From NCBI RefSeq assembly GCF_027000115.1, contig NZ_JALTON010000002.1, positions 1 through 64,000 of the forward strand: DNA of 64,000 nucleotides. Reading direction: 5' to 3'. Positions within the stretch are counted from its first letter, which is position 1. Each line of letters opens with the position of its first letter. Shown here piece after piece: positions 1,795 through 56,645 of this stretch. The stretch comes from Thiohalobacter sp. GTDB taxonomy: Bacteria; Pseudomonadota; Gammaproteobacteria; Thiohalobacterales; Thiohalobacteraceae. Under the pieces are notes generated by a model. The model was given only the letters and a program-made list of their open reading frames with translations, did not search any database and was not told the origin of the DNA. A program made the position numbers and the translations under genes.

Positions 1795-1821
1795 GTATCG
1801 GCCGCCCGCGCAGATTTCTTA
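1795..1821 (-). promoter_or_regulatory. Sigma-28 (FliA) promoter for cheY-cheZ-cheA
   Basis: On the minus strand TAAGAAAT - 11 nt - GCCGATAC matches the FliA consensus TAAAGTTT-N11-GCCGATAA. The -35 element overlaps the TAA stop codon of fliA itself, and cheY begins about 90 nt downstream of the -10. Confidence 0.8.
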
Positions 1822-2547
1822 ATCGCCGGTCCACTCGCCCATGCGGGCCCGCAGGCGGATCAGCGCCTGGCCGTGGATCTGGCATACGCGCGACTCGGAG
1901 ACGCCCAGAACCTCGCCGATTTCGCGGAGATTCAGCTCCTCGTCGTAATAGAGCGCCATCACCAGGCGCTCGCGCTCCGGCAGACCGGCGATGGCTTCCG
2001 CCAGGGCCTTCTGGAAGTCGTCGTGCTGGAGATTGTCCAGCGGCTCGTTGCCGGCCTCCAGGCTGCGCGGCTCGCTCTCCTCGCCCATGGTGCCCGGGTC
2101 GTCGAAGCTGAATACCCGGGCCCCGGTGGCATCCTGAAGGATGCGGTGATACTCGTCGAGGCTGATGCCGAGCAGTTCGGCGACCTCGTTGTCGCGAGCG
2201 TCGCGGCCCTTGGCGTTCTCGATCTCGCGCACCGCCTCGGCGACCTGCCGGGCCTTGCGGTGCACCGAACGCGGGGTCCAGTCGGTACGGCGGATTTCGT
2301 CGAGCATCGCGCCCCGAATGCGAATGCCCGCGTAGGTCTCGAAGCTCGCGCCCTGCGAGGGGTCGTAGTTGCGCGCCGCCTCCAGCAGGCCGATCATGCC
2401 GGCCTGGATGAGATCGTCCACCTGCACGCTGGGCGGCAGCCGGCTCATCAGATGGTAGGCAATGCGCTTGACCAGCGGCGCATGCCGGGTGACCAGTTCA
2501 TCCTGTCCGCGGTCCTGGGTTGCGGCGTACATGGCAGCTCCATTCAT
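1819..2547 (-). CDS. fliA: Flagellar sigma factor FliA (sigma-28)
   Basis: FliA directs RNA polymerase to late flagellar and chemotaxis promoters and is held inactive by FlgM until hook completion. The 242 residues contain sigma region 2 (VDDLIQAGMIGLLEAARNYD), region 3 and region 4 (LREIGEVLGVSESRVCQIH). The start overlaps the flhG stop as ATGA, with a GGAGG site upstream; a second ATG five codons later also has a ribosome site. Its cognate promoters are visible before cheY, cheV, fliC and flgM, and probably before the HDOD-PP2C gene. Confidence 0.97.
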   Translation of the reverse strand: MNGAAMYAATQDRGQDELVTRHAPLVKRIAYHLMSRLPPSVQVDDLIQAGMIGLLEAARNYDPSQGASFETYAGIRIRGAMLDEIRRTDWTPRSVHRKARQVAEAVREIENAKGRDARDNEVAELLGISLDEYHRILQDATGARVFSFDDPGTMGEESEPRSLEAGNEPLDNLQHDDFQKALAEAIAGLPERERLVMALYYDEELNLREIGEVLGVSESRVCQIHGQALIRLRARMGEWTGD

Positions 2548-6870: not shown

Positions 6871-8010
6871 TCAGCGGGGTGGCGCGTCGAAACCCTCCGG
6901 CACCTCGATGTCGGCCGGCGGTGGCGGCACCTCGCCGCCGTGACGCGCAGCGGTGCGCAACTGGAACACGTAGGCCAGCACCTGGGCCACGGCCAGGTAC
7001 AGGGCGGCGGGAATCTCCTGGTCGAGCTCGGTACTGAAGAAGATGGCGCGCGCCAGCGGCGGCGCGGACACGATGGGCACCTCGGCGGCGATCGCCCGTT
7101 CGCGGATCTCGCGCGCGATCAGGTCCTTGCCCTTGGCCACCACCACCGGCGCGCCCATGCGCGCATCGTCGTACTTGAGGGCCACGGCATAGTGGGTGGG
7201 GTTGGTGATGACGACATCGGCGTCGGGCACCGCCTCCATCATCCGCCGCTGGGCAATCTCGCGCTGCATCTGCTTGATGCGGCTCTTGACTTCCGGCTTG
7301 CCCTCGGTGTCCTTGAGTTCGTCCTTGACCTCCTGCCGGGTCATCTTGAGATTCCGCTTGTGATCCCATAGCTGGAAGGGCACGTCCGCGGCCGCGACCA
7401 GAATCAGGGTCGCGCTCAGCAGCAGGAAGCACCAGGCCAGGATCTCGCCCGCGTGCGCGAGCGCCGCCTCGACCGACTCGTAGCCGAGCCCGATAAGCTC
7501 GGACGAGTAATGCATGAACAGTCCGATGCCGACGCCGGCGACCAGCAGGAACTTGGCCAGTGCCTTGAGCAGTTCCACCAGGCCGCGCACCGAAAACATC
7601 CGCTTGAAACCCTTGAGCGGGTTGAGCTTGTCGAGTTTCGGAGTCAGGGCTTCGACACTGAATCCCCAGCCCCCGAGCGCCACCGAGGACACCAGCGCCA
7701 CGATGACGCTGATGACGAAGAAGGGCGCGACGAGGGCCAGGCCGGCCCCCAGCGCCATTTCCATGGCATCGATCAACCCCCTGGGACTGAAGATCGCACG
7801 GCGGTCGAAGCTGAGGCCGTTGTGCAGCAACGCCGAAAACTGCGCCGCCATGTGGCCGCCGCTCAACACCAGGGTACCGGCGGCTGCCATCAGCATGGCC
7901 AGGGTGTTCAGTTCCCGCGAACGGGGAATCTGGCCCTTGCGCCGCGCCTCCTGCTGGCGCTTGGGCGTCGCCTGTTCTGTGCGTTCCTGCCCGTCCTTGT
8001 TCTCCGCCAT
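6871..8010 (-). CDS. flhB: Flagellar export switch protein FlhB
   Basis: FlhB is the inner-membrane export protein whose autocleavage switches substrate specificity from rod/hook to filament, in response to FliK. The 379 residues have four transmembrane segments, then a cytoplasmic domain with the autocleavage motif NPTH at 270-273 (cleaved between Asn and Pro), followed by YAVALKYD. The C-terminus is Pro-rich. The start lies directly against the fliR stop. Confidence 0.97.
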   Translation of the reverse strand: MAENKDGQERTEQATPKRQQEARRKGQIPRSRELNTLAMLMAAAGTLVLSGGHMAAQFSALLHNGLSFDRRAIFSPRGLIDAMEMALGAGLALVAPFFVISVIVALVSSVALGGWGFSVEALTPKLDKLNPLKGFKRMFSVRGLVELLKALAKFLLVAGVGIGLFMHYSSELIGLGYESVEAALAHAGEILAWCFLLLSATLILVAAADVPFQLWDHKRNLKMTRQEVKDELKDTEGKPEVKSRIKQMQREIAQRRMMEAVPDADVVITNPTHYAVALKYDDARMGAPVVVAKGKDLIAREIRERAIAAEVPIVSAPPLARAIFFSTELDQEIPAALYLAVAQVLAYVFQLRTAARHGGEVPPPPADIEVPEGFDAPPR

Positions 8011-42078: not shown

Positions 42079-42474
42079 TTATTCCCCCTTGATGGCAGCC
42101 TTCAGGCCCTTGATGCGGCCACTGAGAAAGGTCAGCGTCGCCTGATACCTGACGGCGTTTTCGGAAAAGGCGGCCTGCTCGACCTGACTGTCGACCGTGT
42201 TGCCGTCGAGCGAGGGCTGGCTGGGAACGCGGAACTTGAGCGGGGCGCCGCCGTAGGCAGGCTCGCCAAGGGGAATATGGCCGGGTTGAGTGACCCGCAT
42301 GGCCAGGCGACGACCCTGCGCCTGGTCGAAGGCAGCGCGAAAGTCGATGTCGCGGGCCTTGTAGTTGGGCGTGTCGGCATTGGCCAGATTCGAGGCCAGC
42401 ACCTCGGTGCGCCGGGCACGCAGCTTGAGTGCCTGCGGCAGCGGACCCAGAGCGGAATCGAAACTTATCGGCAT
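42079..42474 (-). CDS. flgB: Proximal rod protein FlgB
   Basis: FlgB is the rod protein nearest the MS ring/FliE. I chose the ATG at 42474 because the protein then begins MPISFDSALGPLPQALKL like the family, is 131 residues long and has a GAGGA ribosome site. The open frame runs 42 codons further upstream, through the promoter. It contains VLASNLANADTPNYKARDIDF. Confidence 0.96.
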   Translation of the reverse strand: MPISFDSALGPLPQALKLRARRTEVLASNLANADTPNYKARDIDFRAAFDQAQGRRLAMRVTQPGHIPLGEPAYGGAPLKFRVPSQPSLDGNTVDSQVEQAAFSENAVRYQATLTFLSGRIKGLKAAIKGE

Positions 42475-42806
42475 GGCGTCCTCGAACTTGAGCGTTTCCT
42501 GCCCAGTGCATAGCAACGCCCGTGCCATGCCGGCATTCCGTCGCCGTCCGACAGGCCCTCCGCCATGCGTGCCCGGCCACCGGGGAGGCCCGGAGCGCAA
42601 CCCCGGATTCAGATCGAATGGACTTTGAGATCAATCAATTGCAGAGGGAGAACCGCACACACCGGAGGCCATGGGCTGCCCCGTGACGGGCTAAAAGCGG
42701 GGGCAGACAAGGCCGGGGCAGCGCGTGGCCGCCAGTGGCACCGAGGGGACGGACGGGGCGGCAAGGCGGCAAGATCCCGCCGCCTGACGGCAAGGTGGCC
42801 GGCCGC
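42475..42806. other. Intergenic region between cheR and flgB
   Basis: These 332 bases hold the sigma-54 promoter of the flgB operon near the flgB end. I see no credible gene in the rest, and no clear intrinsic terminator after cheR. Confidence 0.6.
42512..42527 (-). promoter_or_regulatory. Sigma-54 promoter for flgBCDEFGHIJKL
   Basis: The minus strand reads TGGCAC - GGGCG - TTGCT, a full consensus match. The predicted start is about 26 nt before the flgB ATG. Confidence 0.85.
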
Positions 42807-45610: not shown

Positions 45611-45637
45611 TAAAGTTATTGAAACAGCAACCGATAC
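45611..45637 (+). promoter_or_regulatory. Sigma-28 promoter for flgM-flgN
   Basis: TAAAGTTA - 11 nt - ACCGATAC, close to the FliA consensus in both boxes. It lies 67 nt before flgM and would give FliA control of its own inhibitor. Confidence 0.82.
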
Positions 45638-45703: not shown

Positions 45704-46030
45704 ATGGCAATTGAAATCAACAACCTTCCTCCCTCGCACGTGGGACTGGACGGCCAGGCCGGCAGCCAGGGCGTGGGCAATGCCAACCCGCAGCAGGCCG
45801 AGGACGGCAAGACCGGCGCCCCGGCACCGGGCAGCGATCAGGTCACCCTGACGCCGCAGGCCCGGCAGCTGCGCGCCCTGGAGGCCCGCATCGCCGAACA
45901 GCCCGAGGTGGACGGCAACCGGGTGGCGCAGATCCGCGAGGCGCTGGCCAACGGCACCTTTGAGGTAAACGCCGAGCGCATCGCCGCGAAAATGAGCAGC
46001 CTGGAACGCGCGCTCGGCGACGCAAGCTGA
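45704..46030 (+). CDS. flgM: Anti-sigma-28 factor FlgM
   Basis: FlgM binds FliA until it is exported through the finished hook. The 108 residues have the disordered Gly/Gln-rich first half and the conserved C-terminal half (VTLTPQARQLRALEARIA, DGNRVAQIREALANGTFEVNAERIAAKM in parts). It lies after flgA and just upstream of flgN. Confidence 0.94.
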   Translation: MAIEINNLPPSHVGLDGQAGSQGVGNANPQQAEDGKTGAPAPGSDQVTLTPQARQLRALEARIAEQPEVDGNRVAQIREALANGTFEVNAERIAAKMSSLERALGDAS

Positions 46031-46895: not shown

Positions 46896-47639
46896 ATGGC
46901 CGAGGCACCACCCAGGGGGCAGGCTTCACGGTATGAAAGCAAGGCCGAGAAGGTCACCCACTTTCCACAGATCGTCGGCCTGCTGAGACGCATCCGCGAC
47001 AGCCGCAATCTGCTCACCATCCGCATCCCCGGCAGCGAACTGACCTTCAACAGCATGCTGCTGGAGGTCGACGCCGACGAGGGCTACATCCTCCTCGACG
47101 AACTCAACCAACCCCGCGGTCACGAACTGGTGCAGGAAAAGGGTGTGCTGCGCGCCTTCTGCCGCTGCCAGGGAGTGGAGATCAATTTCGTCTGCAGGGT
47201 GCAGGTGGAACAGAGCCGCGACGGCGTCGCCTTCTACCGCGGCGGGATCCCCGATTCCCTCAGCTACTATCAGCGCCGCTCGGCCTACCGGGTGCATGTC
47301 ACCCTGGACACCGACATCCCGGTCCTGCTGACCCTCGATGAAGGGGAGCGCCTGCAGGGCCATCTGCACGACCTGTCGGTTGGCGGCATCGGGCTGACCC
47401 TGGACACCGAAAAGGAGTTGCGCCAGGGCCTGGTGATCCCCGACTGCACCCTCAAGCTGCCCAAGGGCGATCCCGTCCGGACCGATGTCGAGGTGCGTTT
47501 CGCCCGCACAGACACCGAAAAGCACGTCACCCGCATAGGCGGCCGCTTCCTGCACCTGCCCCCGAAGATCGAGACCCGCCTCAGCCGCTTCGTCGCGCAG
47601 CTCGAGCGCGACCTGCTGCGCCGCAAGACCCGCCGCTGA
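46896..47639 (+). CDS. YcgR-like flagellar brake, PilZ domain protein
   Basis: The 247 residues have an N-terminal YcgR domain (about 20-115) and a C-terminal PilZ domain whose c-di-GMP binding motifs are intact: RRSAYR (about 127-132) and DLSVGGIGL (about 160-168). Such proteins bind c-di-GMP and slow the motor. The position after flgM-flgN matches Pseudomonas. The MITE-like element now lies between flgN and this gene, and I see no clear flagellar promoter after it. Confidence 0.9.
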   Translation: MAEAPPRGQASRYESKAEKVTHFPQIVGLLRRIRDSRNLLTIRIPGSELTFNSMLLEVDADEGYILLDELNQPRGHELVQEKGVLRAFCRCQGVEINFVCRVQVEQSRDGVAFYRGGIPDSLSYYQRRSAYRVHVTLDTDIPVLLTLDEGERLQGHLHDLSVGGIGLTLDTEKELRQGLVIPDCTLKLPKGDPVRTDVEVRFARTDTEKHVTRIGGRFLHLPPKIETRLSRFVAQLERDLLRRKTRR

Positions 47640-47657
47640 GGTACAATGCCCTTTCCC

Positions 47658-47734
47658 GCCCCGGTAGCTCAGTTGGATAGAGCGAGCGCCTCCTAAGCGC
47701 TAGGTCGGACGTTCGAGTCGTCTCCGGGGCGCCA
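47658..47734 (+). tRNA. tRNA-Arg(CCT)
   Basis: The 77 nt fold as a cloverleaf. The acceptor GCCCCGG pairs with CCGGGGC, the D arm is GCTC...GAGC, and the anticodon stem AGCGC/GCGCT encloses loop CTCCTAA (anticodon CCT, reading AGG). The T arm is GGACG-TTCGAGT-CGTCT with one G-U pair. CCA is encoded. Confidence 0.93.
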
Positions 47735-47918
47735 TTCATTTCCTTCGGTACCGGACAGCCTGGGTGATCCGCAGCGCCGCAGCTGACCACCCGACTCGAA
47801 CGGCCGACCTGTCGGCATCGGCGGAACAAATGCCGAGAACGCAGAGACGCCGAGTTCACCGAGGCAGGGCGCACAGGGGAAGGACATTGCCGCCCCTTGC
47901 ATCTCCGGCCCACCGCAA
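47735..47918. other. Intergenic region between tRNA-Arg and relA
   Basis: The two genes converge here. A short perfect hairpin GCCGAC-CT-GTCGGC lies near 47803-47816, with no T-run on either strand. Nothing else is recognisable. Confidence 0.4.
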
Positions 47919-50129
47919 TCAGCGCGCCTTGCGCCGCGCCTCCACCACGTTGGGCAACTGGCTGATCCTGCTCAGCACCCGGCTCAGCGAACCGAGGTCG
48001 CTGATCTCGACCGTGAGCTGCATGTGGGCGGCGTGATCCCGCTTGTCGGTGTGGGTGTTCACCGCCAGCACGTTGATCTTCTCGCCCGCCAGCACCGAGG
48101 TGACGTCGCGCAGCAGCCCGGCGCGGTCGAAGGCCAGGATCTGGATGTCCACCGGATAGGTCTGGCCGCCCCCCTCGCCCCATTCCACCTCGATCAGGCG
48201 ATCGCGGTCCTCGGGCCGCAGACGCAGCATGTTGGGGCAGTCCTGACGATGGATGGTCACCCCCCGGCCCCGGGTGATGTAACCGACGATGGCATCGCTA
48301 GGCAGTGGCCGGCAGCACTGGGCGACATGGGTCAGCAGGTTGCCCACCCCCTGTATCCGAATGCCGCGTTCGCCCTCGCCGCGCCGCCGTCGCGCAGGGG
48401 CAGTGGCCGGGGTTTCCGCAGTTTCGCTACGGGTGAGTTCGCTGGCAGCGCCCACCAGCTGGGCGGAATTGAGATCGCCACTGCCGATGGCCGCGAGCAT
48501 GGCATCCACCTCGGCGAAGCCCAGGCGCTCGGCCAGCCGCTCCCAGGCCAGGCCCTCGATGCCCAGCCGCGACAGTTCGCGCTCCAGCGCGGCGCGACCG
48601 GCAGCGATGTTCTTTTCCTGGTCCTGCTGGCGGAACCAGTGCCGTACCTTGGCGCGTGCCCGCGGCGTGCGCAGGTAGCCGAGATGCGGGCTCAGCCAGT
48701 CGCGGCTGGGCGCGCCCTGGCGGGTGGTCAGCACCTCCACCTGCTCGCCGTTCTGCAGTTCGTAGGTGAGCGGTACGATGCGGCCGTTGACCTTGGCCCC
48801 GCGGCAGCGGTGGCCGATCTCGGTATGGATGTAGTAGGCGAAGTCCAGCGGCGTCGCCCCCTGCGGCAGGTCGACCACCTCGCCGTCGGGCGTGAGCACG
48901 TATACCCGCTCATGACCCGACTCGGCCTTGAAGCGGTCGACGAAATCGGTGGCCGAGGATTCCTCGTCCTTCCACTCCAGCAGCTGCCGCAACCAGGCAA
49001 TCTTCTGCTCGAAGGCGGCATCGAAACGGGCGCCTTCCTTGTAGCGCCAGTGTGCGGCCACGCCCAGCTCGGCATGCTCGTGCATGTCTCGGGTTCGGAT
49101 CTGCACCTCCAGCGTCTTGCCGCCCGGCCCGACCACGGCGGTGTGCAGCGAGCGGTAGTTGTTCTGCTTGGGATTGGCGATGTAGTCGTCGAATTCCTTC
49201 GGGATGTGATGCCACAGACTGTGCACCACGCCCAGCGCCGCATAGCAGTCCGCCACCGACTCGGTGAGGATACGCACCGCCCGCACGTCGAAGATCTGGT
49301 GGAAATCGACGTTCTTGCGCTGCATCTTCTTCCAGATGCTGTAGATGTGCTTGGGGCGCCCGGTGACCTCGGCGCGCACGCCGGCGTGGGCCAGCTCCCG
49401 CTGCAACTGGCGCACCACGCGCTCGATGTAGCGCTCGCGGTCCACACGCTTCTCGTCCAGCCGCGCCGCAATGTCGCGGTAGGTGTCCGGGTCCAGGTAG
49501 CGCAGCGACAGGTCCTCGAGTTCCCACTTCACCTGGCCCATACCCAGCCGGTTGGCCAGCGGCGCGTAGATCTCCAGCGTCTCGCGCGCAATGCGGCGCT
49601 GGCGTTCGCCACTCAGGTACTTGAGGGTGCGCATGTTGTGCAGCCGGTCGGCCAGCTTTATCAGCACCACGCGCACATCCTCGACCATGGCCAGCAGCAG
49701 CTTGCGCACGCTCTCGGCCTGGTCGCGGGCGCGCTCGGAGGCATCGCGGAAGCGGCTCAGGTGACCCATCTTGGTGACGCCGTCAACCAGCCGCGCCACC
49801 ACCTCGCCGAACTCGGCGGCGATGTCGGCGCGTGTCAATTCGGTGTCTTCCAGGGTATCGTGCAAAATGCCGGCAACGATGGCCTCGGCGTCCAGGTGCT
49901 GCTCCTGCAGGATGGCAGCCACCGCCAGGCAGTGCTCGACATAGGGCTCGCCGGAGGCCCGCCGCTGGCCGGCATGGGCGGCCTCGGCACGCTCGATGGC
50001 GCGCGCGATCAGAACCCGTTCCGCGTCGGAGCGGCCCTCGCCCAGACGGGCCAGCCAGTGCCCGCGATCCGCCACCGGCACCAGACCGGTGCTGTCATGC
50101 CTTGCTTCGACCACGGATCGAGTCTCCAT
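47919..50129 (-). CDS. relA: RelA-type (p)ppGpp synthetase with an apparently intact HD domain
   Basis: The 736 residues contain, in order, an HD hydrolase domain, a synthetase domain, a TGS domain (about 400-460) and a C-terminal ACT domain. The synthetase carries EFDD at 312-315, the EXDD signature of RelA-type synthetases rather than RXKD of SpoT types. Unusually for a gammaproteobacterial RelA, the HD residues look intact: Arg57, His66, His90-Asp91, Glu94-Asp95, Asp161 and Asn165. The start overlaps the upstream lipoprotein gene by 121 bp in another frame. No alternative ATG lies nearby, and GTG codons in the first 20 would only shorten the overlap. Confidence 0.93.
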   Translation of the reverse strand: METRSVVEARHDSTGLVPVADRGHWLARLGEGRSDAERVLIARAIERAEAAHAGQRRASGEPYVEHCLAVAAILQEQHLDAEAIVAGILHDTLEDTELTRADIAAEFGEVVARLVDGVTKMGHLSRFRDASERARDQAESVRKLLLAMVEDVRVVLIKLADRLHNMRTLKYLSGERQRRIARETLEIYAPLANRLGMGQVKWELEDLSLRYLDPDTYRDIAARLDEKRVDRERYIERVVRQLQRELAHAGVRAEVTGRPKHIYSIWKKMQRKNVDFHQIFDVRAVRILTESVADCYAALGVVHSLWHHIPKEFDDYIANPKQNNYRSLHTAVVGPGGKTLEVQIRTRDMHEHAELGVAAHWRYKEGARFDAAFEQKIAWLRQLLEWKDEESSATDFVDRFKAESGHERVYVLTPDGEVVDLPQGATPLDFAYYIHTEIGHRCRGAKVNGRIVPLTYELQNGEQVEVLTTRQGAPSRDWLSPHLGYLRTPRARAKVRHWFRQQDQEKNIAAGRAALERELSRLGIEGLAWERLAERLGFAEVDAMLAAIGSGDLNSAQLVGAASELTRSETAETPATAPARRRRGEGERGIRIQGVGNLLTHVAQCCRPLPSDAIVGYITRGRGVTIHRQDCPNMLRLRPEDRDRLIEVEWGEGGGQTYPVDIQILAFDRAGLLRDVTSVLAGEKINVLAVNTHTDKRDHAAHMQLTVEISDLGSLSRVLSRISQLPNVVEARRKAR

Positions 50130-50809
50130 GAGATCGGGCCATTCCCCGCCTCTTCAAAGTGTAGACCGGAAATCGAGGTTTCAAGGTCGGCCCTTGGCAT
50201 CCGGGCCAATGCCTCCGCCAGTCGCCGCTGCCAGTCGGCATGGATTTCTGCCAGCAGGGAACGGAAGGCCGCGACCGTATCGTAGGCCCGCGCCGGAACC
50301 GGCGACGACCAGCGGTCGTAGTCGGCGCGCGCCAGCACCCGATCACTGCGGCTGTCGACCAGCCGCAGCTGCAGATGCAGGTGGGCGCGCGCCTGCGCGC
50401 CGTCGTAGATCTGGTCGAGCGCGGCGATGTGGCCCTGCACCCGGTAGCGGGCGGGCGCGCCCTCCCCCGCCAGTCGCGCCTCCAGCCCGGCGGCGCGCAG
50501 CCAGTGTACCTGGGCCCGCGCCAGCATGAGCGGCGGCGCCTCGTGCCAGTAATGATAGTGGTGACGCACCAGCGCCAGCGGACGGTCGGCCTCGCCGTGC
50601 ACCAGCTCGCGACCGCGATACAGGGGCGAGGCGGTGAAGCGTTCAACCACCACGGCCGGCAGCGCTGCCAGCGCCGGATCGGCCGCCGGCAGTTCCGGAT
50701 CCAGCCGGTAGTAGCGAGTCTCCGGTGCCACGGCCCCGCCGCCGCAGGCCGTCAGCAGCCAGGCACACACCAGCAGCAGCAGGCTTCCCTGTCTCACGCG
50801 CTTCATCAC
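50009..50809 (-). CDS. ABC-type transport auxiliary lipoprotein (PqiC-like)
   Basis: The 266-residue protein has a lipoprotein signal (lipobox LLTAC, Cys22) and the ABC_trans_aux pattern (RYYRLDPELP near the start, VVVERFTASPLYRGRELV, then LLAEIHADWQRRLAEALA). Such lipoproteins are outer-membrane partners of MCE transporters. The start overlaps the MlaD-like gene by ATGA. The last 40 or so codons overlap relA and look unlike the family, so a frameshift or an elongated tail is possible. Confidence 0.82.
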   Translation of the reverse strand: MMKRVRQGSLLLLVCAWLLTACGGGAVAPETRYYRLDPELPAADPALAALPAVVVERFTASPLYRGRELVHGEADRPLALVRHHYHYWHEAPPLMLARAQVHWLRAAGLEARLAGEGAPARYRVQGHIAALDQIYDGAQARAHLHLQLRLVDSRSDRVLARADYDRWSSPVPARAYDTVAAFRSLLAEIHADWQRRLAEALARMPRADLETSISGLHFEEAGNGPISWRLDPWSKQGMTAPVWCRWRIAGTGWPVWARAAPTRNGF

Positions 50810-51747
50810 GGACGCTCCCGGTCGGCCGGCGGCCGGCTGTTGAGCAGCACGCCGGGGTTGCTGCGCAACTGGCGGCTGAACTCGTTCATGTTGCGGCTGG
50901 CGCTCTCCAGGTCGGCCAGCATGCCATCCAGCGAACGCGCGATGCGATCCATGCTCTGGCGTAGGCCGCGCACCGTCTCGCGCACGTCGCCGGCATTGTC
51001 GTTGACCAGGCCCCGGGCTTCGCCGATCAGCGCGGTCAGCTCCTGCTCGGAATTGCGCAGCGTTGCCGACAGGCTGGCCAGATCGGCGGACATGCGCTCG
51101 GCGTTGACCAGGATGTTGTCCACCCGCTGTTCGTTGTCGCCATCCAGTATCCGCGACAGGGTGGCGGCACTGGCATCCAGCCGGCCGACCAGGCTCTCGA
51201 CATCGGCGAGGATGCGCGGCACCCGCTCGCCGAGCGCGCCGCCGACGGTGCCGATCTGCCGGTCGAGGTTCTCCAGCAGCGGCTTGAGCGTGCCGCGGGT
51301 GAGGCCACCGACATCCTCGGCCACCTCGCTCAGAACCGCGAACAGGTCCATGCCAGGGGCGCCCTCGATCTCGGCACCGGGCGGCAGGAATTCGCGTGCC
51401 TTGCCCTCGTCGATGTCGATCACCGTCTCTGCCAGCAGTCCCGAGGCGTGGATGCGCGCCCGGCTGTCCACCGGAATGCGCCAGTCGTCGCGGATGCGCA
51501 GTTCCAGCCGGTAGCGGGTGCCGCTGTCGGTCTGCTGCGGCTCGATGGCACGCACATAGCCGACCTGGAAGCCCTCGTAGGTCACCACCGTGCCGCTGCC
51601 CAGGCCGGCGATGTTGGCATAGCTCACGTAATAGGGTTCGGTGTCGCCCACCCGCCCGGTGATGCGATACAGGGCGACCAGCGCCACCGCCAGCATCAGG
51701 ATCACGAACAGGCCGACGGCCAGGTAATTGATGTTGTCGCGCTTCAT
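50806..51747 (-). CDS. MlaD family (MCE domain) substrate-binding protein
   Basis: The ATG at 51747 lies 5 nt after the ATPase stop and gives 313 residues. It has an N-terminal membrane anchor (about 8-30), an MCE domain (about 38-115, with GLGSGTVVTYEGFQVGYV) and a long helical C-terminus that in the family forms a tunnel or needle. It would carry phospholipid between membranes with the ATPase and permease of the same operon. Confidence 0.93.
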   Translation of the reverse strand: MKRDNINYLAVGLFVILMLAVALVALYRITGRVGDTEPYYVSYANIAGLGSGTVVTYEGFQVGYVRAIEPQQTDSGTRYRLELRIRDDWRIPVDSRARIHASGLLAETVIDIDEGKAREFLPPGAEIEGAPGMDLFAVLSEVAEDVGGLTRGTLKPLLENLDRQIGTVGGALGERVPRILADVESLVGRLDASAATLSRILDGDNEQRVDNILVNAERMSADLASLSATLRNSEQELTALIGEARGLVNDNAGDVRETVRGLRQSMDRIARSLDGMLADLESASRNMNEFSRQLRSNPGVLLNSRPPADRERP

Positions 51748-51752
51748 CGCAC

Positions 51753-52571
51753 TCAGTTCATCCTTGTCAGTCGCTCGAGGTAGGCCTCGGCGTCGATGGC
51801 TTCCGTGTCCGGCGTGCGATTGAGCAGTGCCTGGATGCGTTCGTTGTCGCAATGCCTCAGTTCATCCGGTGTGCCCGTCATCAGGATGCGGCCGCGATCC
51901 AGTACCGTGATGCGGTCGGCGATCTTGAAGGCGCTGTCCAGCTCGTGGGTCACCACCACCATGGTGATGCCCATGGCCTCGCGCAGGCGCAGGATCAGTT
52001 CGTCCAGCTCGGCCGAGACCACCGGGTCGAGACCGGCCGAGGGCTCGTCGAAGAACAGCACCTGCGGATCCATGACGATGGCCCGTGCAAGCGCGGCGCG
52101 CTTGACCATGCCACCCGAGAGCTGGGCCGGCATCAGGTCCTCGAAGCCGGCCAGGTTGACCACTTCCAGCTTCATGCGCGCCATGATGCGCATGGTCTTC
52201 TCGTCCAGCCGGGTGTGCTCACGCAGCGGGAATTCCACGTTCTCGCCCACGGTCATGGAATTGAACAGCGCCCCGCCCTGGAAGGACACGCCGATGCGGC
52301 GTCGCAGTTCGTACATCTCGCGGGCGCTCAGCCTGTGCAGGTCGCGGCCGAACAGGCGGATCTCGCCCGCGCTGGGGCGGTTCAGGCCCAGCAGATGGCG
52401 CAGCAGGGTCGACTTGCCCGAGCCGCTGCCACCCATGATGACGCGGATCTCGCCTGCTTCCACGCGCAGGTCGACCTGGTCCAGAATGCGCCGCTCGCCA
52501 TAGTGGGTAACCAGGCCGCGGACCTCGATCACGGGCTCGGCGGGACGGGATTGGGTGTCGGTCGCCTGCAT
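51753..52571 (-). CDS. MCE-transporter ATP-binding protein (MlaF-like)
   Basis: This is a 272-residue ABC ATPase with Walker A GGSGSGKST, signature LSGGMVKRAALARA, Walker B VLFFDEPSAGLDP and the switch His in VVTHE. The LSGGMVKR form is typical of the MlaF/Ttg2A branch. It lies 7 nt after the permease gene. Confidence 0.95.
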   Translation of the reverse strand: MQATDTQSRPAEPVIEVRGLVTHYGERRILDQVDLRVEAGEIRVIMGGSGSGKSTLLRHLLGLNRPSAGEIRLFGRDLHRLSAREMYELRRRIGVSFQGGALFNSMTVGENVEFPLREHTRLDEKTMRIMARMKLEVVNLAGFEDLMPAQLSGGMVKRAALARAIVMDPQVLFFDEPSAGLDPVVSAELDELILRLREAMGITMVVVTHELDSAFKIADRITVLDRGRILMTGTPDELRHCDNERIQALLNRTPDTEAIDAEAYLERLTRMN

Positions 52572-52578
52572 GCCCGCC

Positions 52579-53367
52579 TCAGCGACTCAGGAAGAAGGTG
52601 AAGATCATGTCGGCGATCACGATGGCGGCGATGCACAGCACCACCGAGCGCGTGGTGAAGCGCCCCAGCCCTTCGGAACCGCCGGTAGCCAGAAAGCCGT
52701 TGATGCAGGCCACCAGCGTGATGAGCACCGCGAACACCAGGCTCTTGGCCAAACCCTGTATGGGATCGTCCAGCACCATGGCGGCAAAGGTCGCATCCCA
52801 GAAGGCACCCAGGCTCATGTGCAACTGGAAGCTGCACAGCAGGCCACCGCCGGTCAGCGCCGCGGCATTGGCAAGCACGGTCAGCGCCGGGAACATGACC
52901 AGCATGGCCACCAGAATGGGCGCGACGAGCTGGCGCACGGGATTGACGCCCAGCACGCGCAGGGCGTCGATTTCCTGCGACATCTGCATGGCGCCGATGC
53001 GCGCCGCGATCGCCGAGCCCGAGCGGCCGGCGACCACGATGCCCACGATCAGCGCGCCGAATTCGCGGGTAATGGACAACGCGAGTCCGGGGATGACCTG
53101 GGACTCGGCGCCGAAATCACGCAGGGTATGGATACCCTGCAGCGCCATCATCACCCCGTTGGCGAAGGCCAGAATCACGACCACCGGGATGGCGCTGACA
53201 CCGATGCGCATCATTTCGGTGGCCACTGCCGAGAGGCGCACCGGCTGCTGCTGCCAGGGGCCCGCGAACAGCCAGTACAGGGATTCGGCCAGCAGCGCCG
53301 AGCCGTAGCCGAATTCCTCCACGCCGTTGACCACCCGGCGCCCGAGGCTTTCCATCGCCGCGCGCAT
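52579..53367 (-). CDS. MCE-transporter permease (MlaE family)
   Basis: The 262-residue integral membrane protein has about five helices and the family motif GAMQMSQEIDALRVLGVNP, the coupling region. It starts 7 nt after the STAS gene. In relatives a STAS domain is often a separate partner (MlaB) or fused to the permease. Confidence 0.94.
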   Translation of the reverse strand: MRAAMESLGRRVVNGVEEFGYGSALLAESLYWLFAGPWQQQPVRLSAVATEMMRIGVSAIPVVVILAFANGVMMALQGIHTLRDFGAESQVIPGLALSITREFGALIVGIVVAGRSGSAIAARIGAMQMSQEIDALRVLGVNPVRQLVAPILVAMLVMFPALTVLANAAALTGGGLLCSFQLHMSLGAFWDATFAAMVLDDPIQGLAKSLVFAVLITLVACINGFLATGGSEGLGRFTTRSVVLCIAAIVIADMIFTFFLSR

Positions 53368-53374
53368 GAGGGTC

Positions 53375-53704
53375 TCAGGCCGCCTGCGGTATTTCCGCCA
53401 GGCTGCGGTAGAGGGTGAACACCTGGTCCAGACGCGCCAGCTTGAGCACGTTCAGCGCTGTGGCGCTGACCCCGACCAGAGCGAACTGCAGGCCGCGCTC
53501 CCGCGCGTGTTGCAGTCCCTCGACCAGACTGGCGACGCCCGAACTGTCGATATAGTCGACGGCAGACAGGTCGACCAGGGTCGGCTGGCCATCGTCCAGA
53601 CAGCCCAGGATCACCGCGCGGGCCTCCGGACTCCGATGCATATCGATCTCGCCGCTGAGCCCCACCACGGCCCAGCCCTTCTCACGGCTCACTGCGTAAC
53701 TCAT
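53375..53704 (-). CDS. STAS domain protein (anti-sigma antagonist or MlaB-like)
   Basis: This 109-residue single STAS domain has the phosphorylation motif YIDSSGVASL near residues 50-59, with Ser at the position that RsbW/SpoIIAB kinases modify. It overlaps the RsbW-type kinase by 23 bp upstream and lies 7 nt before the permease, so it could serve either neighbour or both. An AGAGGG ribosome site precedes the ATG. Confidence 0.9.
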   Translation of the reverse strand: MSYAVSREKGWAVVGLSGEIDMHRSPEARAVILGCLDDGQPTLVDLSAVDYIDSSGVASLVEGLQHARERGLQFALVGVSATALNVLKLARLDQVFTLYRSLAEIPQAA

Positions 53705-54128
53705 GGTTTCCCTCTTGCTGGTACAGGTGAACCTGCATGATCAGGCGATTGCCGGTCCCGCCGGGGTCCGGCCGGTATTCGACGGAGTCCATCAGGCTGC
53801 GCATGAAGTGCACGCCGAGACCACCGGGGCGGACGGTGGCCAGGTCGCGCGGCTGCACGCGGGCCGGGTCCAGCGCGGGCGCCCCGTCCTCGATGCAGAC
53901 CTCCAGCCGGTCGCCATCCAACCCCAGCGTGACCCCGATCCAGCCGGGGCGACCGGCGTAGCCATGCTGGATGACGTTCATGCAGGCTTCGTTGACTGCC
54001 ATCACCACGGCATCGCGCCGGCTTCCCGTCACGCCCGCATCCTCCAGCGCCGCGCGCAATCCGTCGCGGATTCGCTGCAACTCGGCCGGGCTCGCATCGA
54101 AACGACCCGAAAACAGGGTCTCAGCCAC
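53682..54128 (-). CDS. RsbW-type serine kinase / anti-sigma factor
   Basis: I place the start at the GTG at 54128, which overlaps the phosphatase stop by 8 bp (GTGGCTGA) and has a GGGGTGG site upstream; the protein is 148 residues. The GHKL ATPase motifs are present: N box VNEACMNVIQHGY, G1 EDGAPALDP and G2 GGLGVHFM. Kinases of this family bind and phosphorylate a STAS partner and, in the free state, bind a sigma or other target. Confidence 0.88.
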   Translation of the reverse strand: MAETLFSGRFDASPAELQRIRDGLRAALEDAGVTGSRRDAVVMAVNEACMNVIQHGYAGRPGWIGVTLGLDGDRLEVCIEDGAPALDPARVQPRDLATVRPGGLGVHFMRSLMDSVEYRPDPGGTGNRLIMQVHLYQQEGNHELRSEP

Positions 54129-55836
54129 CGTTTCCACCCCGCATGGCGCCGCTGTCGACGACCAGCAGGGTGAGGTCGTCCGCGGCCGATTCCTGACGTC
54201 CCTGGACTCCATGCAGGATCTGATGCAAGCGCCGTTCCAGCGGCGCCCCGGCGTGCTCGCGGATCAGCCGCTTCAGTCCGCCCAGGCCCAGCTCGCCGCC
54301 ACCGGGCTGTCGCGCCTCGGTCACGCCGTCGGTGAACAGATACAGCGCGCCCTCTTCCAGCCGGAATTCGAGATTCTCGTAGCGGCTGTCCGGCAACACG
54401 CCCAGCGGCGGCCCACTGGCCGGCCATTCGCGGAAGGCACCGTCGCCCCGCAATTGCAGCACCGGCAGGTGACCGGCATTGGCCAGCCGGCCGCGCCCGG
54501 TTTCGGGGTCGAAGATGCCCGCCGCCATGGTCACGAACATGCCGCGGATGGCGTTCTCGCTCAGCTCGCGGTTGAGCATGGCCAGCAGCGCCGAGGGATC
54601 GGTGACACCCTTGCCCAGACAGTGGAACAGGCTGCTGGTCTTGGCCATCAGCAGCGCCGCATGCATGCCCTTGCCCGACACATCGGCGATGGCGAAGTAG
54701 CGCCAGCCATCGCGGGCGGTGAAGTGGTCGTAGAAATCGCCGGAAACCTGGCGGGCGGAGAGATTCAGTCCCAGCACACCTTCCTCGGGTGTGCTGCGGC
54801 GCGGCAGCAGCGCGCACTGCACCTCGCGCGCCAGGGCCAGCTCGCGGTCGAGTTCCGCGGCCAGGGCGTCGCGCTCGGCCAGGGTCTGCTGCAGGCGCCA
54901 GGTGAGTTCCTGGAAGCTGAGGTTTTCCTCGGCCAGACGCAGGTTCGCCTCGCGCAGGACTTCCTCCAGCGCCGGTTGGCGGTCGATGCGAAAGCCCAGC
55001 AGGCTGGCCGCCTCGGCAATGGCCTCGCCGACACCGTCCAGCAGGCCGTCGACGGCCTCGGCATCCAGATCGAAGTGTTCGTCCAGTACCTTGCCGCAGC
55101 GCGCATAGACGATGCGCTTGTCGGCCGCGGAAAACACCGCGGCCATCCAGTCCGCGCAGCGCGCCACGCGGCAGAGTTGCCGGATCTCGCCGGACAGTTC
55201 GCCGAACACCGGCGCATGATGATGACCGATGGCCGCGGCCAGATCCTCGGGCAGCCCCCAGGCAGCGGCCAGCGCCTGCCCGGCCTGCTCGTGGGTATGG
55301 CCAAAGAGCTGTCGCTCGAGTTCCAGCCGGTCGTCGGGATTGGCCGCCTCCAGCCGCGCCCATTCGCTCACGCGGTCGGGATACAGGTAGAACAGGACCA
55401 GCAGACCGAAATCCTGCAGCAGGCCGGCAGTGAAGCATTCATCGACGTCCAGTCCCGCAATGTCTGCCAATGCCCGCGCGCAGACCGCACGCCGCAAGGC
55501 AGCCTCCCAGAAGCGGTCCAGGGGCATGCCCGGAATGGCCTCCTTGCGCAGGGCATCGCGCATGGCGATACAGAGCGCGAGGTTGCGCAGGGCGCGTTGA
55601 CCGAGCAGCGCGACCGCGTGGGCGGCGGACCTGACCTGGGAGCGAAAGCCGAAGAAGGCCGAATTGGCCACCCGCAGCAATTCGGCCGTGAGCACCGGGT
55701 CGCGGGTGATGAATTCGCCCAGGCGACGCGCATCGATGTCCGGGCGCGAACAGGCCTGAACGATCTGCAGCGCGGCCTGAGGCGGCGCGGGCAGGTCGGT
55801 GGGGCGCAGCTGGTCGAGGGCGAGGGCTTCTTCCAT
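54121..55836 (-). CDS. HDOD domain-PP2C (SpoIIE/RsbU-type) phosphatase
   Basis: With the ATG at 55836 the protein has 571 residues. An N-terminal HDOD domain (about 10-200; LRVANSAFFGFRSQVRSAAHAVALLG) and a linker coiled coil (about 285-345) precede a PP2C domain with metal-binding Asp in GDFYD, ADVSGKG and DDLTLLV. RsbU-type phosphatases dephosphorylate a STAS protein, here probably the one two genes on. The frame is open upstream to 56349, but that part crosses the divergent gene and the promoter and is not credible. Confidence 0.9.
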   Translation of the reverse strand: MEEALALDQLRPTDLPAPPQAALQIVQACSRPDIDARRLGEFITRDPVLTAELLRVANSAFFGFRSQVRSAAHAVALLGQRALRNLALCIAMRDALRKEAIPGMPLDRFWEAALRRAVCARALADIAGLDVDECFTAGLLQDFGLLVLFYLYPDRVSEWARLEAANPDDRLELERQLFGHTHEQAGQALAAAWGLPEDLAAAIGHHHAPVFGELSGEIRQLCRVARCADWMAAVFSAADKRIVYARCGKVLDEHFDLDAEAVDGLLDGVGEAIAEAASLLGFRIDRQPALEEVLREANLRLAEENLSFQELTWRLQQTLAERDALAAELDRELALAREVQCALLPRRSTPEEGVLGLNLSARQVSGDFYDHFTARDGWRYFAIADVSGKGMHAALLMAKTSSLFHCLGKGVTDPSALLAMLNRELSENAIRGMFVTMAAGIFDPETGRGRLANAGHLPVLQLRGDGAFREWPASGPPLGVLPDSRYENLEFRLEEGALYLFTDGVTEARQPGGGELGLGGLKRLIREHAGAPLERRLHQILHGVQGRQESAADDLTLLVVDSGAMRGGNGG

Positions 55837-56150
55837 GAGCGGTTCTTCGTCGGTCGGCAGCGGCTGCACCCGCTGCCGCCTGAGTGGCAATGCGCGGGCC
55901 GCCCGGCCCGTGCCTTCGGCCGGGTTATCGGCGCCGGGGAGGAATTCTGTACCAGGCCCGCCGCCGGGCGCGCGATGGCGGGCGTCATCCGGATACGCCG
56001 ACAGCAGGCCAGCCGGGTGAACAGGACACATCGGGTTCCCGCTTCGAAAATACAGGGATTTGCGGGCATTTCCTCGTCCCCGTGGTGAAACCCGCGGGTC
56101 GCGGGTAAGCTGAAAATCCTCACGGGCGAGACGCAAGGACCCCAAACCGC
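55837..56150. other. Divergent intergenic region
   Basis: These 314 bases separate the phosphatase gene and the CDP-archaeol-synthase-family gene. Besides the sigma-28 type site, I see GC-rich imperfect repeats (CGGGCCGCCCGGCCCG near 55897) and no gene. Confidence 0.5.
55925..55951 (-). promoter_or_regulatory. Sigma-28 type promoter for the HDOD-PP2C/MCE/relA operon
   Basis: The minus strand has TACAGAAT - 11 nt - GCCGATAA. The -10 is a perfect 8-base FliA match and spacing is exact; the -35 matches TAAAGTTT at 5 of 8. It lies about 90 nt before the phosphatase ATG. Confidence 0.62.
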
Positions 56151-56645
56151 ATGCCGGAACCCTGGATCGACGCCCTGATCGTCCTGGGCCTGCTGATTCT
56201 GGCCAACGGCGCGCCCATCCTGGCGCGCCTGCTCGCGGGCGGCCGCGAGGGCCGACCGGTGGACGGCGGACGGCGGGCGCCCGACGGCCGGCCCTGGCTC
56301 GGGCCGTCCAAGACCTGGCGGGGCATCCTGGCCGCGGTGCTGCTGACACCGCTGGCGGCCTGGGTGCTGGGCGAGCCGGCGCTGGCCGGCCTGCTGATCG
56401 GCATCGGGGCGATGGCGGGCGACCTGCTGGCCAGCTTCGTCAAGCGCCGGATGGGCATCCCCTCCAGCGGCATGGCGCTGGGCCTGGACCAGATTCCCGA
56501 AAGTCTGCTGCCGCTGCTGCTGGTGGAACCCCTCTACCGTTTCGGCCCCTGGCAACTCCTGGCCATGGTGATGCTGTTCCTGGTCGCCGAGCTGGTGCTG
56601 TCACGCATCCTCTACGCCCTGCACATCCGCAAGCACCCCTGGTGA
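56151..56645 (+). CDS. CDP-archaeol synthase family membrane protein (CarS-like)
   Basis: The 164 residues have four membrane helices and the family motifs NGAPILARL, GPSKTWRG, GDLLASFVKRRMGIPSSGMALGLDQIPES. The family is best known for archaeal CDP-archaeol synthase, and bacterial members are presumably CDP-alcohol lipid enzymes of unknown substrate. All motifs look intact. It is convergent with the metallophosphoesterase gene. Confidence 0.85.
   Translation: MPEPWIDALIVLGLLILANGAPILARLLAGGREGRPVDGGRRAPDGRPWLGPSKTWRGILAAVLLTPLAAWVLGEPALAGLLIGIGAMAGDLLASFVKRRMGIPSSGMALGLDQIPESLLPLLLVEPLYRFGPWQLLAMVMLFLVAELVLSRILYALHIRKHPW

Follow-up and report, generated by a model that had tools for sequence, protein, structure and literature searches.

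The locus examined here raises two questions, namely whether an operon that runs from a phosphatase gene through the genes of a lipid transporter of the Mla/MCE type, with relA next to it, is transcribed by the flagellar sigma factor sigma-28 (FliA), and on what the signaling proteins encoded at its head act. The operon lies in a 64,000-nucleotide stretch of Thiohalobacter sp. DNA (assembly GCF_027000115.1, contig NZ_JALTON010000002.1, positions 1 to 64,000; hereafter the window). Our answer, to which we give a probability of roughly 0.6, is that a FliA promoter puts an Mla-type lipid transporter controlled by a partner switch under the late flagellar program in one gammaproteobacterial family. 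By sequence, this reading rests on the promoter match and its conservation before the operon head, the order and overlaps of the genes, the intact catalytic motifs, the invariant DSSG motif of a STAS protein, the conserved tail of MlaF and the presence of one STAS solution per transporter class; from these we infer transcription by FliA, phosphorylation, STAS-MlaF binding and the direction of control. The site and its flagellar references are as follows.

55925..55951, minus strand: sigma-28-type promoter, with a -35-like TACAGAAT (55944-55951), an 11-nucleotide (nt) spacer and a -10-like GCCGATAA (55925-55932)
45611..45637, plus strand: reference sigma-28 site of flgM, matching consensus and matrix
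45704..46030, plus strand: flgM, anti-sigma-28 (Pfam FlgM, 6.3e-18)
1819..2547, minus strand: fliA, sigma-28 (TIGR02479, 277.6 bits, above cut-off; profile match 1840-2496)

The HDOD-PP2C phosphatase gene starts (ATG at 55836) 88 nt downstream of the site, and the spacer between TACAGAAT and GCCGATAA reads tcctccccggc on the minus strand. The initial annotation had noted a perfect element at exact 11-nt spacing. The -10 element and the 11-nt spacing are both exact matches to the sigma-28 (FliA) pattern; the -35 element has three mismatches to TAAAGTTT, and the site is therefore perfect in part only. A search for TAAAGTTT-N11-GCCGATAA with up to three mismatches found five matches in the window versus 0.02 expected from shuffled sequences, four of them before fliC, cheV, flgM and the phosphatase/Mce operon and the fifth overlapping the start of flgB. 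Across the 2.65-Mb genome the same consensus gave 16 matches versus 4 with the reversed pattern, most of the 16 preceding motility, type IV pilus or cyclic di-GMP (c-di-GMP) genes; the non-flagellar genes among these encode a YcgR-like PilZ protein, PilG- and PilH-looking receiver proteins, a PilB-type ATPase, a receiver-GGDEF protein, an HD-domain (DUF3391) protein, a CheW-like protein and CsrA. Since a stricter genome search with NAAAGNNT-11-NCCGATAN returned a single site, located elsewhere, we adopted the looser consensus together with a clade-specific matrix built from 32 sites at the flgM and fliC loci of 19 relatives' genomes. On this matrix the operon site scores 16.7 bits and ranks fifth in the window (next background match, 11.7), near the bottom of the range for true sites; the training sites score 14.9-26.5 bits when left out. 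An equally good site is expected in a random 250-bp stretch with p ~0.0009 (null drawn at random from the collected loci, matrix without the window genome's own sites), and nothing comparable was found upstream of the genome's two other Mla systems (p ~0.6). The site thus shares with FliA class III/IV flagellar promoters the 11-nt spacer and the GCCGATAA -10 element, scored by the flgM/fliC matrix, and differs from them in its weaker -35 element and in preceding an operon for lipid transport and signaling.

All 11 genomes of the family and nine others have the phosphatase gene, and 19 of these 20 genomes carry fliA. Leaving out one genome whose contig ends too near (G008), a sigma-28-type site precedes the operon in nine of the ten testable family genomes, each with p<0.004, and the nine are spread over five of the six genera. 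Where the phosphatase gene comes first, the site is directly upstream of it (G000, G001, G009, G002, G005). In the other four genomes (G003, G006, G007, G010), the operon opens with genes for a small YgaP-like membrane protein and a PAS-GGDEF-EAL protein, and the site stands before the new first gene, ~3 kb upstream of the HDOD gene (TAAAGTTT-11-GCCGTTGA in G007); the sequence of the sites turns over between lineages. The proposal of a sigma-28-type promoter in front of the phosphatase/MCE/relA operon is supported by its coordinates, its matrix rank and its conservation in relatives. The inserted GGDEF-EAL first genes suggest a c-di-GMP input. A YgaP-like gene heads the operon at the loci L041 (309-3125), L044, L040, L038 and L054, at several of them together with PAS-GGDEF-EAL. 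Loss of flagella in the genus g4, where FlgM and FliC were not found, was considered and rejected: its member G003 has flhA and fliA, and the gaps are therefore probably due to assembly or divergence. On the other side of the intergenic region that it has in common with the operon, a divergent gene (56151-56645) encodes a CarS-like/CTP-transferase membrane protein (lipid nucleotide chemistry), which stays near the operon in much of the family.

The operon itself encodes, in this order and followed by relA:

54121..55836, minus strand: HDOD-PP2C (SpoIIE-type) phosphatase, 571 amino acids (Pfam HDOD 1.5e-55, SpoIIE 4.1e-43)
53682..54137, minus strand: RsbW/SpoIIAB-like serine kinase (Pfam HATPase_c_2, 2.3e-28)
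53375..53704, minus strand: STAS protein with YIDSSG and the predicted phosphosite Ser54 (Pfam STAS 1e-17)
52579..53367, minus strand: MlaE-type permease (Pfam MlaE 3.4e-64)
51753..52571, minus strand: MlaF-type ATPase (Pfam ABC_tran 6.7e-32; best PDB relatives are MlaF chains)
51756..51794, minus strand: C-terminal tail of MlaF, DAEAYLERLTRMN, the counterpart of the MlaB-contacting E. coli MlaF tail (PMC7367683)
50806..51747, minus strand: MlaD/MCE-domain protein (Pfam MlaD 7.9e-14)
50009..50809, minus strand: ABC-type transport auxiliary lipoprotein (Pfam ABC_trans_aux 2.1e-06), its 3' end overlapping the relA start

The GTG start of the kinase gene overlaps the phosphatase stop and the ATG of the STAS gene overlaps the kinase stop, and neither terminator-like nor sigma-70-like sites were found between the operon genes on the operon strand. 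For the phosphatase, an in-frame GTG at 55869 is an alternative start; a 742-amino-acid open reading frame extended further upstream was rejected as coding, since the similarity to relatives begins near the 55836 ATG. The sequence features of a PP2C/kinase/STAS partner switch are present, namely the metal-binding Asp residues of PP2C (D367, D385, D503 and D553/D554, invariant in a 17-sequence alignment), the GHKL kinase motifs (N box E50/N54, D84 and GGLG, nearly invariant among 70 homologues) and the DSSG serine of the STAS protein (61 of 61 homologues). Against the NCBIfam RsbW model the kinase gives 3e-13, under the model cut-off. The MlaE, MlaF and MlaD (MCE) subunits of an Mla/MCE ABC transporter stand together in the same operon.

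This arrangement reaches beyond the family. Among loci gathered via the phosphatase (PP2C) alone, most of those from proteobacteria and myxococci carry kinase, STAS, MlaE, MlaF and MlaD in order, and the order PP2C-kinase-STAS-MlaE-F-D(-lipoprotein) is found in the family of the window genome and at loci labelled Thiogranum, Thiodiazotropha, Rhodospirillales, Myxococcota and 'Deltaproteobacteria'. At five loci (L109, L132, L135, L140, L145) a single GAF-PP2C-RsbW-kinase protein is encoded directly 5' of STAS-MlaE-MlaF-MlaD, which by its predicted domains combines another kind of sensor with the kinase in one chain. We did not use L145, labelled 'Stygiobacter', as a further phylum; its MlaF tail nearly equals that of L138, and it is therefore probably a mis-binned alphaproteobacterial contig. 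Two loci hold further signaling genes: a second PP2C gene, of a membrane type (HAMP), follows the trio and mlaF at L104 (12443-13591), and a gene for a BLUF blue-light sensor (7534-7944) lies ~1.4 kb downstream of the trio at L055.

What, then, does the switch act on? As many as three classes of Mla system occur in the genomes of the module group, and each class has a single STAS solution. In the first, the canonical mlaFED(C)B, MlaB is short and the MlaF tail reads, for example, DYLDDLL; in the second, MlaE carries a fused STAS domain and MlaF is without the MlaB-contacting tail; in the third, the switch class, MlaF ends in [DE]xYLxRL(T), the strict motif [DE]xYLxRL fitting 43 of 45 complete tails. 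The corresponding tails are DYHADLL in E. coli MlaF, where Tyr261, Leu265 and Leu266 contact MlaB (PMC7367683), and DYLDDLL in the canonical MlaF of the window genome, which also keeps mlaFEDCB. Some relatives have less regular canonical tails (e.g., PPLAVELL in G024), and the MlaF tail alone is therefore not proof. Three layouts point in the same direction. G055 has phosphatase-kinase-STAS-MlaF-MlaE-MlaD-MlaA-MlaC with no MlaB in the operon, and Endoriftia is similar, the module including MlaC in both. In G032 only MlaF comes after the trio, and MlaE and MlaD are encoded elsewhere as a pair that lacks MlaF. G053 has an isolated trio, and its MlaF-MlaE-MlaD set with a switch-class tail, located elsewhere, has no STAS gene within 1.5 kb on either side. 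The simplest reading of these sequences is that the switch STAS protein is an MlaB-like partner of MlaF and fills the place of MlaB. In its predicted model (pLDDT 94.5), helix 2 begins at Ser54, which aligns with MlaB Thr52 and corresponds in position to SpoIIAA Ser58. The module thus shares with E. coli MlaFEDB the MlaE, MlaF and MlaD homologues, a small STAS protein with a phospho-type residue at the start of helix 2, and the Tyr and Leu contact positions of the MlaF tail. It differs in that the STAS gene precedes the transporter genes instead of coming last and encodes a full RsbV-like protein with DSSG, that the STAS gene is itself preceded by dedicated kinase and phosphatase genes, and that the auxiliary lipoprotein replaces MlaC in most members. 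The window operon is accordingly not a canonical Mla pathway, having no MlaC and subunits that score below the MlaB, MlaD, MlaE and MlaF cut-offs.

In the mechanism that we propose, the unphosphorylated STAS protein would replace MlaB, docking on MlaF and on the C-terminal tail of the partner MlaF, and the MlaFED-type transporter would work. The RsbW-like kinase would phosphorylate Ser54, and a phosphate at the center of the interface would release the STAS protein from MlaF and turn the transporter off; the HDOD-PP2C phosphatase, told by its HDOD domain, would remove the phosphate and turn it on again. FliA would raise the whole unit during late flagellar assembly. Data from E. coli fit this in part: the MlaB substitution T52E makes binding to MlaF weaker, and how MlaB is controlled has been called an open question (PMC7367683).

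Several observations weigh against this reading. E. coli MlaB T52A assembles but is inactive, which misfits a simple phospho-switch (PMC7367683, PMC5016091). The STAS protein scores 26.3 bits against the NCBIfam MlaB equivalog (cut-off 90) and is not a member, and its fold is closer to RsbV/SpoIIAA (TM 0.84) than to MlaB (~0.63). Such a fold is expected because the protein must also fit the kinase and the phosphatase, and we suggest that it may work like MlaB while claiming no membership of the MlaB family. The same likeness, with a kinase closest to RsbW and SpoIIAB, would also suit a classical partner switch, in which the kinase would act as an anti-sigma factor on RpoS or some other sigma factor and be antagonized by the STAS protein, the Mla genes being merely co-regulated. 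CrsR and HsbR do bind RpoS (PMC6482189), and in a few lineages the trio has no adjoining Mla gene (L055, L115, L136, L143, L147). The module indeed shares its three protein classes and the phosphosite position with RsbU/RsbV/RsbW and SpoIIE/SpoIIAA/SpoIIAB; unlike theirs, its operon has a lipid transporter and no sigma factor, and a sigma factor gene is never a constant neighbor. The trio is linked to Mla genes at the majority of proteobacterial loci and, in G032, to MlaF by itself; a classical switch would leave an MlaB-less MlaFED without a STAS subunit, and we consider it unlikely. The initial annotation had looked to the HsbR-HsbA switch, whose biology with FlgM it cited correctly (PMC5085249, PMC6482189), and proposed that the module might feed back on FlgM, with the lipid transporter and RelA as additional outputs. 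In a circuit of this kind the dephosphorylated STAS protein would bind FlgM and free FliA in a positive feedback loop, with the transporter and RelA as passengers. In P. aeruginosa, FlgM is bound by HsbA, whose hsb genes adjoin flgM, flgN and the PilZ gene (PMC5085249); in the window, the STAS and phosphatase genes lie ~7-10 kb from flgM. HsbR-HsbA (Pseudomonas) and CrsR-CrsA (Shewanella) likewise combine a PP2C phosphatase, a HATPase kinase and a STAS protein, and their PP2C-kinase layout recurs in the GAF-PP2C-kinase fusions of other lineages. The module differs from both in having HDOD or GAF where they have a receiver domain, a separate kinase in the window genome, transporter genes in its operon and no visible link to FlgM or RpoS, and it does not belong with HsbR-HsbA. 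Its constant neighbors are MlaE, MlaF and MlaD and no flagellar genes, and FlgM was detected in 7 of the 32 module genomes and not in the other 25, a count to be read with FlgM being short and many genomes being drafts. On this distribution we rejected FlgM as a conserved output; it is therefore unlikely to be a general target and is probably not the output of the switch, which makes an HsbA-like circuit very unlikely here, though an interaction with FlgM may exist in this one family. The transporter, in turn, looks like the target of the switch instead of an additional output, given the MlaF tails and the layouts of G055, G032 and G053.

The promoter can be doubted as well. One of the three -35 mismatches falls where all 32 flgM/fliC sites of the relatives have A, and G004, the closest relative, has no recognizable site (p=0.23); the sigma-28-like sequence might then be unused and the operon driven by another promoter. 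Such a reading is quite unlikely in view of the head-gene sites in five genera and their movement with the head gene, and no sigma-70-like promoter was found in 47500-56400. Outside the family the sigma-28 signal is weak (G077, G090) or absent, and the promoter is therefore a lineage trait.

The gene next to the operon encodes a true RelA by its NCBIfam score.

47919..50129, minus strand: relA, GTP diphosphokinase (NF008124, 795 bits versus a cut-off of 728)

It lies 3' of the operon in the family of the window genome and a few neighbors and nowhere else, and a possible promoter of its own, TTGAAA-15-TACACT, is present shortly upstream of relA, where the lipoprotein gene ends. RelA as an output of the switch therefore finds no support in this distribution; relA is an adjacent, less conserved neighbor of the operon whose co-transcription is putative.

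Other sigma-28-like sites were noted in the genome and its relatives. The match at 42465-42491 of the window (TCAAGTTC-11-GCCGATAA, also in G001, G004 and G007) was excluded as support, since its -10 element overlaps the flgB start codon; it may be a promoter, or merely a conserved ribosome site with start codons. FimV was dropped as a target, as TTTAGATTT..GCCGATAA falls where the coding sequence before it ends and is near-unchanged in relatives. Good sites, e.g., TAAAGTTT-11-GACGCTAA, precede a gene for a PilG-like receiver, with a PilH-like gene downstream, and are kept across the family (L004, L014, window genome C18; L210 in G004, L211 in G007, L217 in G002). These sequences suggest that the Pil-Chp surface-motility system may be FliA-controlled in the family of the window genome. 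A PilB-type ATPase gene is preceded by a sigma-28-like site in two genomes (L006 on C31 of the window genome, L228 in G005), and TRTAGTTTC..GCCGACAA, ~90-110 nt 5' of csrA, is conserved in relatives (L011, C2:86056-86082 of the window genome; L212 in G002; L220 in G004).

Searches of the open-licence literature turned up no account of an Mla transporter under phosphatase/kinase control, of such enzymes paired with an Mla STAS protein, or of regulation of Mla by FliA. Control of MlaB by phosphorylation has been put forward as a possibility for the E. coli Mla system, with the enzymes left open (PMC5016091, PMC7367683). The operon supplies candidate kinase and phosphatase genes beside an Mla STAS protein in many lineages, and this idea is therefore directly testable. 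We see about an even chance that a widespread class of Mla/MCE transporters is switched by reversible phosphorylation of a STAS serine through a kinase and a sensor phosphatase (HDOD or GAF) of the same operon, and that in the family of the window genome this class has come under FliA, which would couple lipid traffic in the envelope to the assembly of flagella. If true, an ABC transporter would join sigma factors as a target of partner switching, and in this one family envelope lipid traffic would be linked to the flagellar checkpoint.
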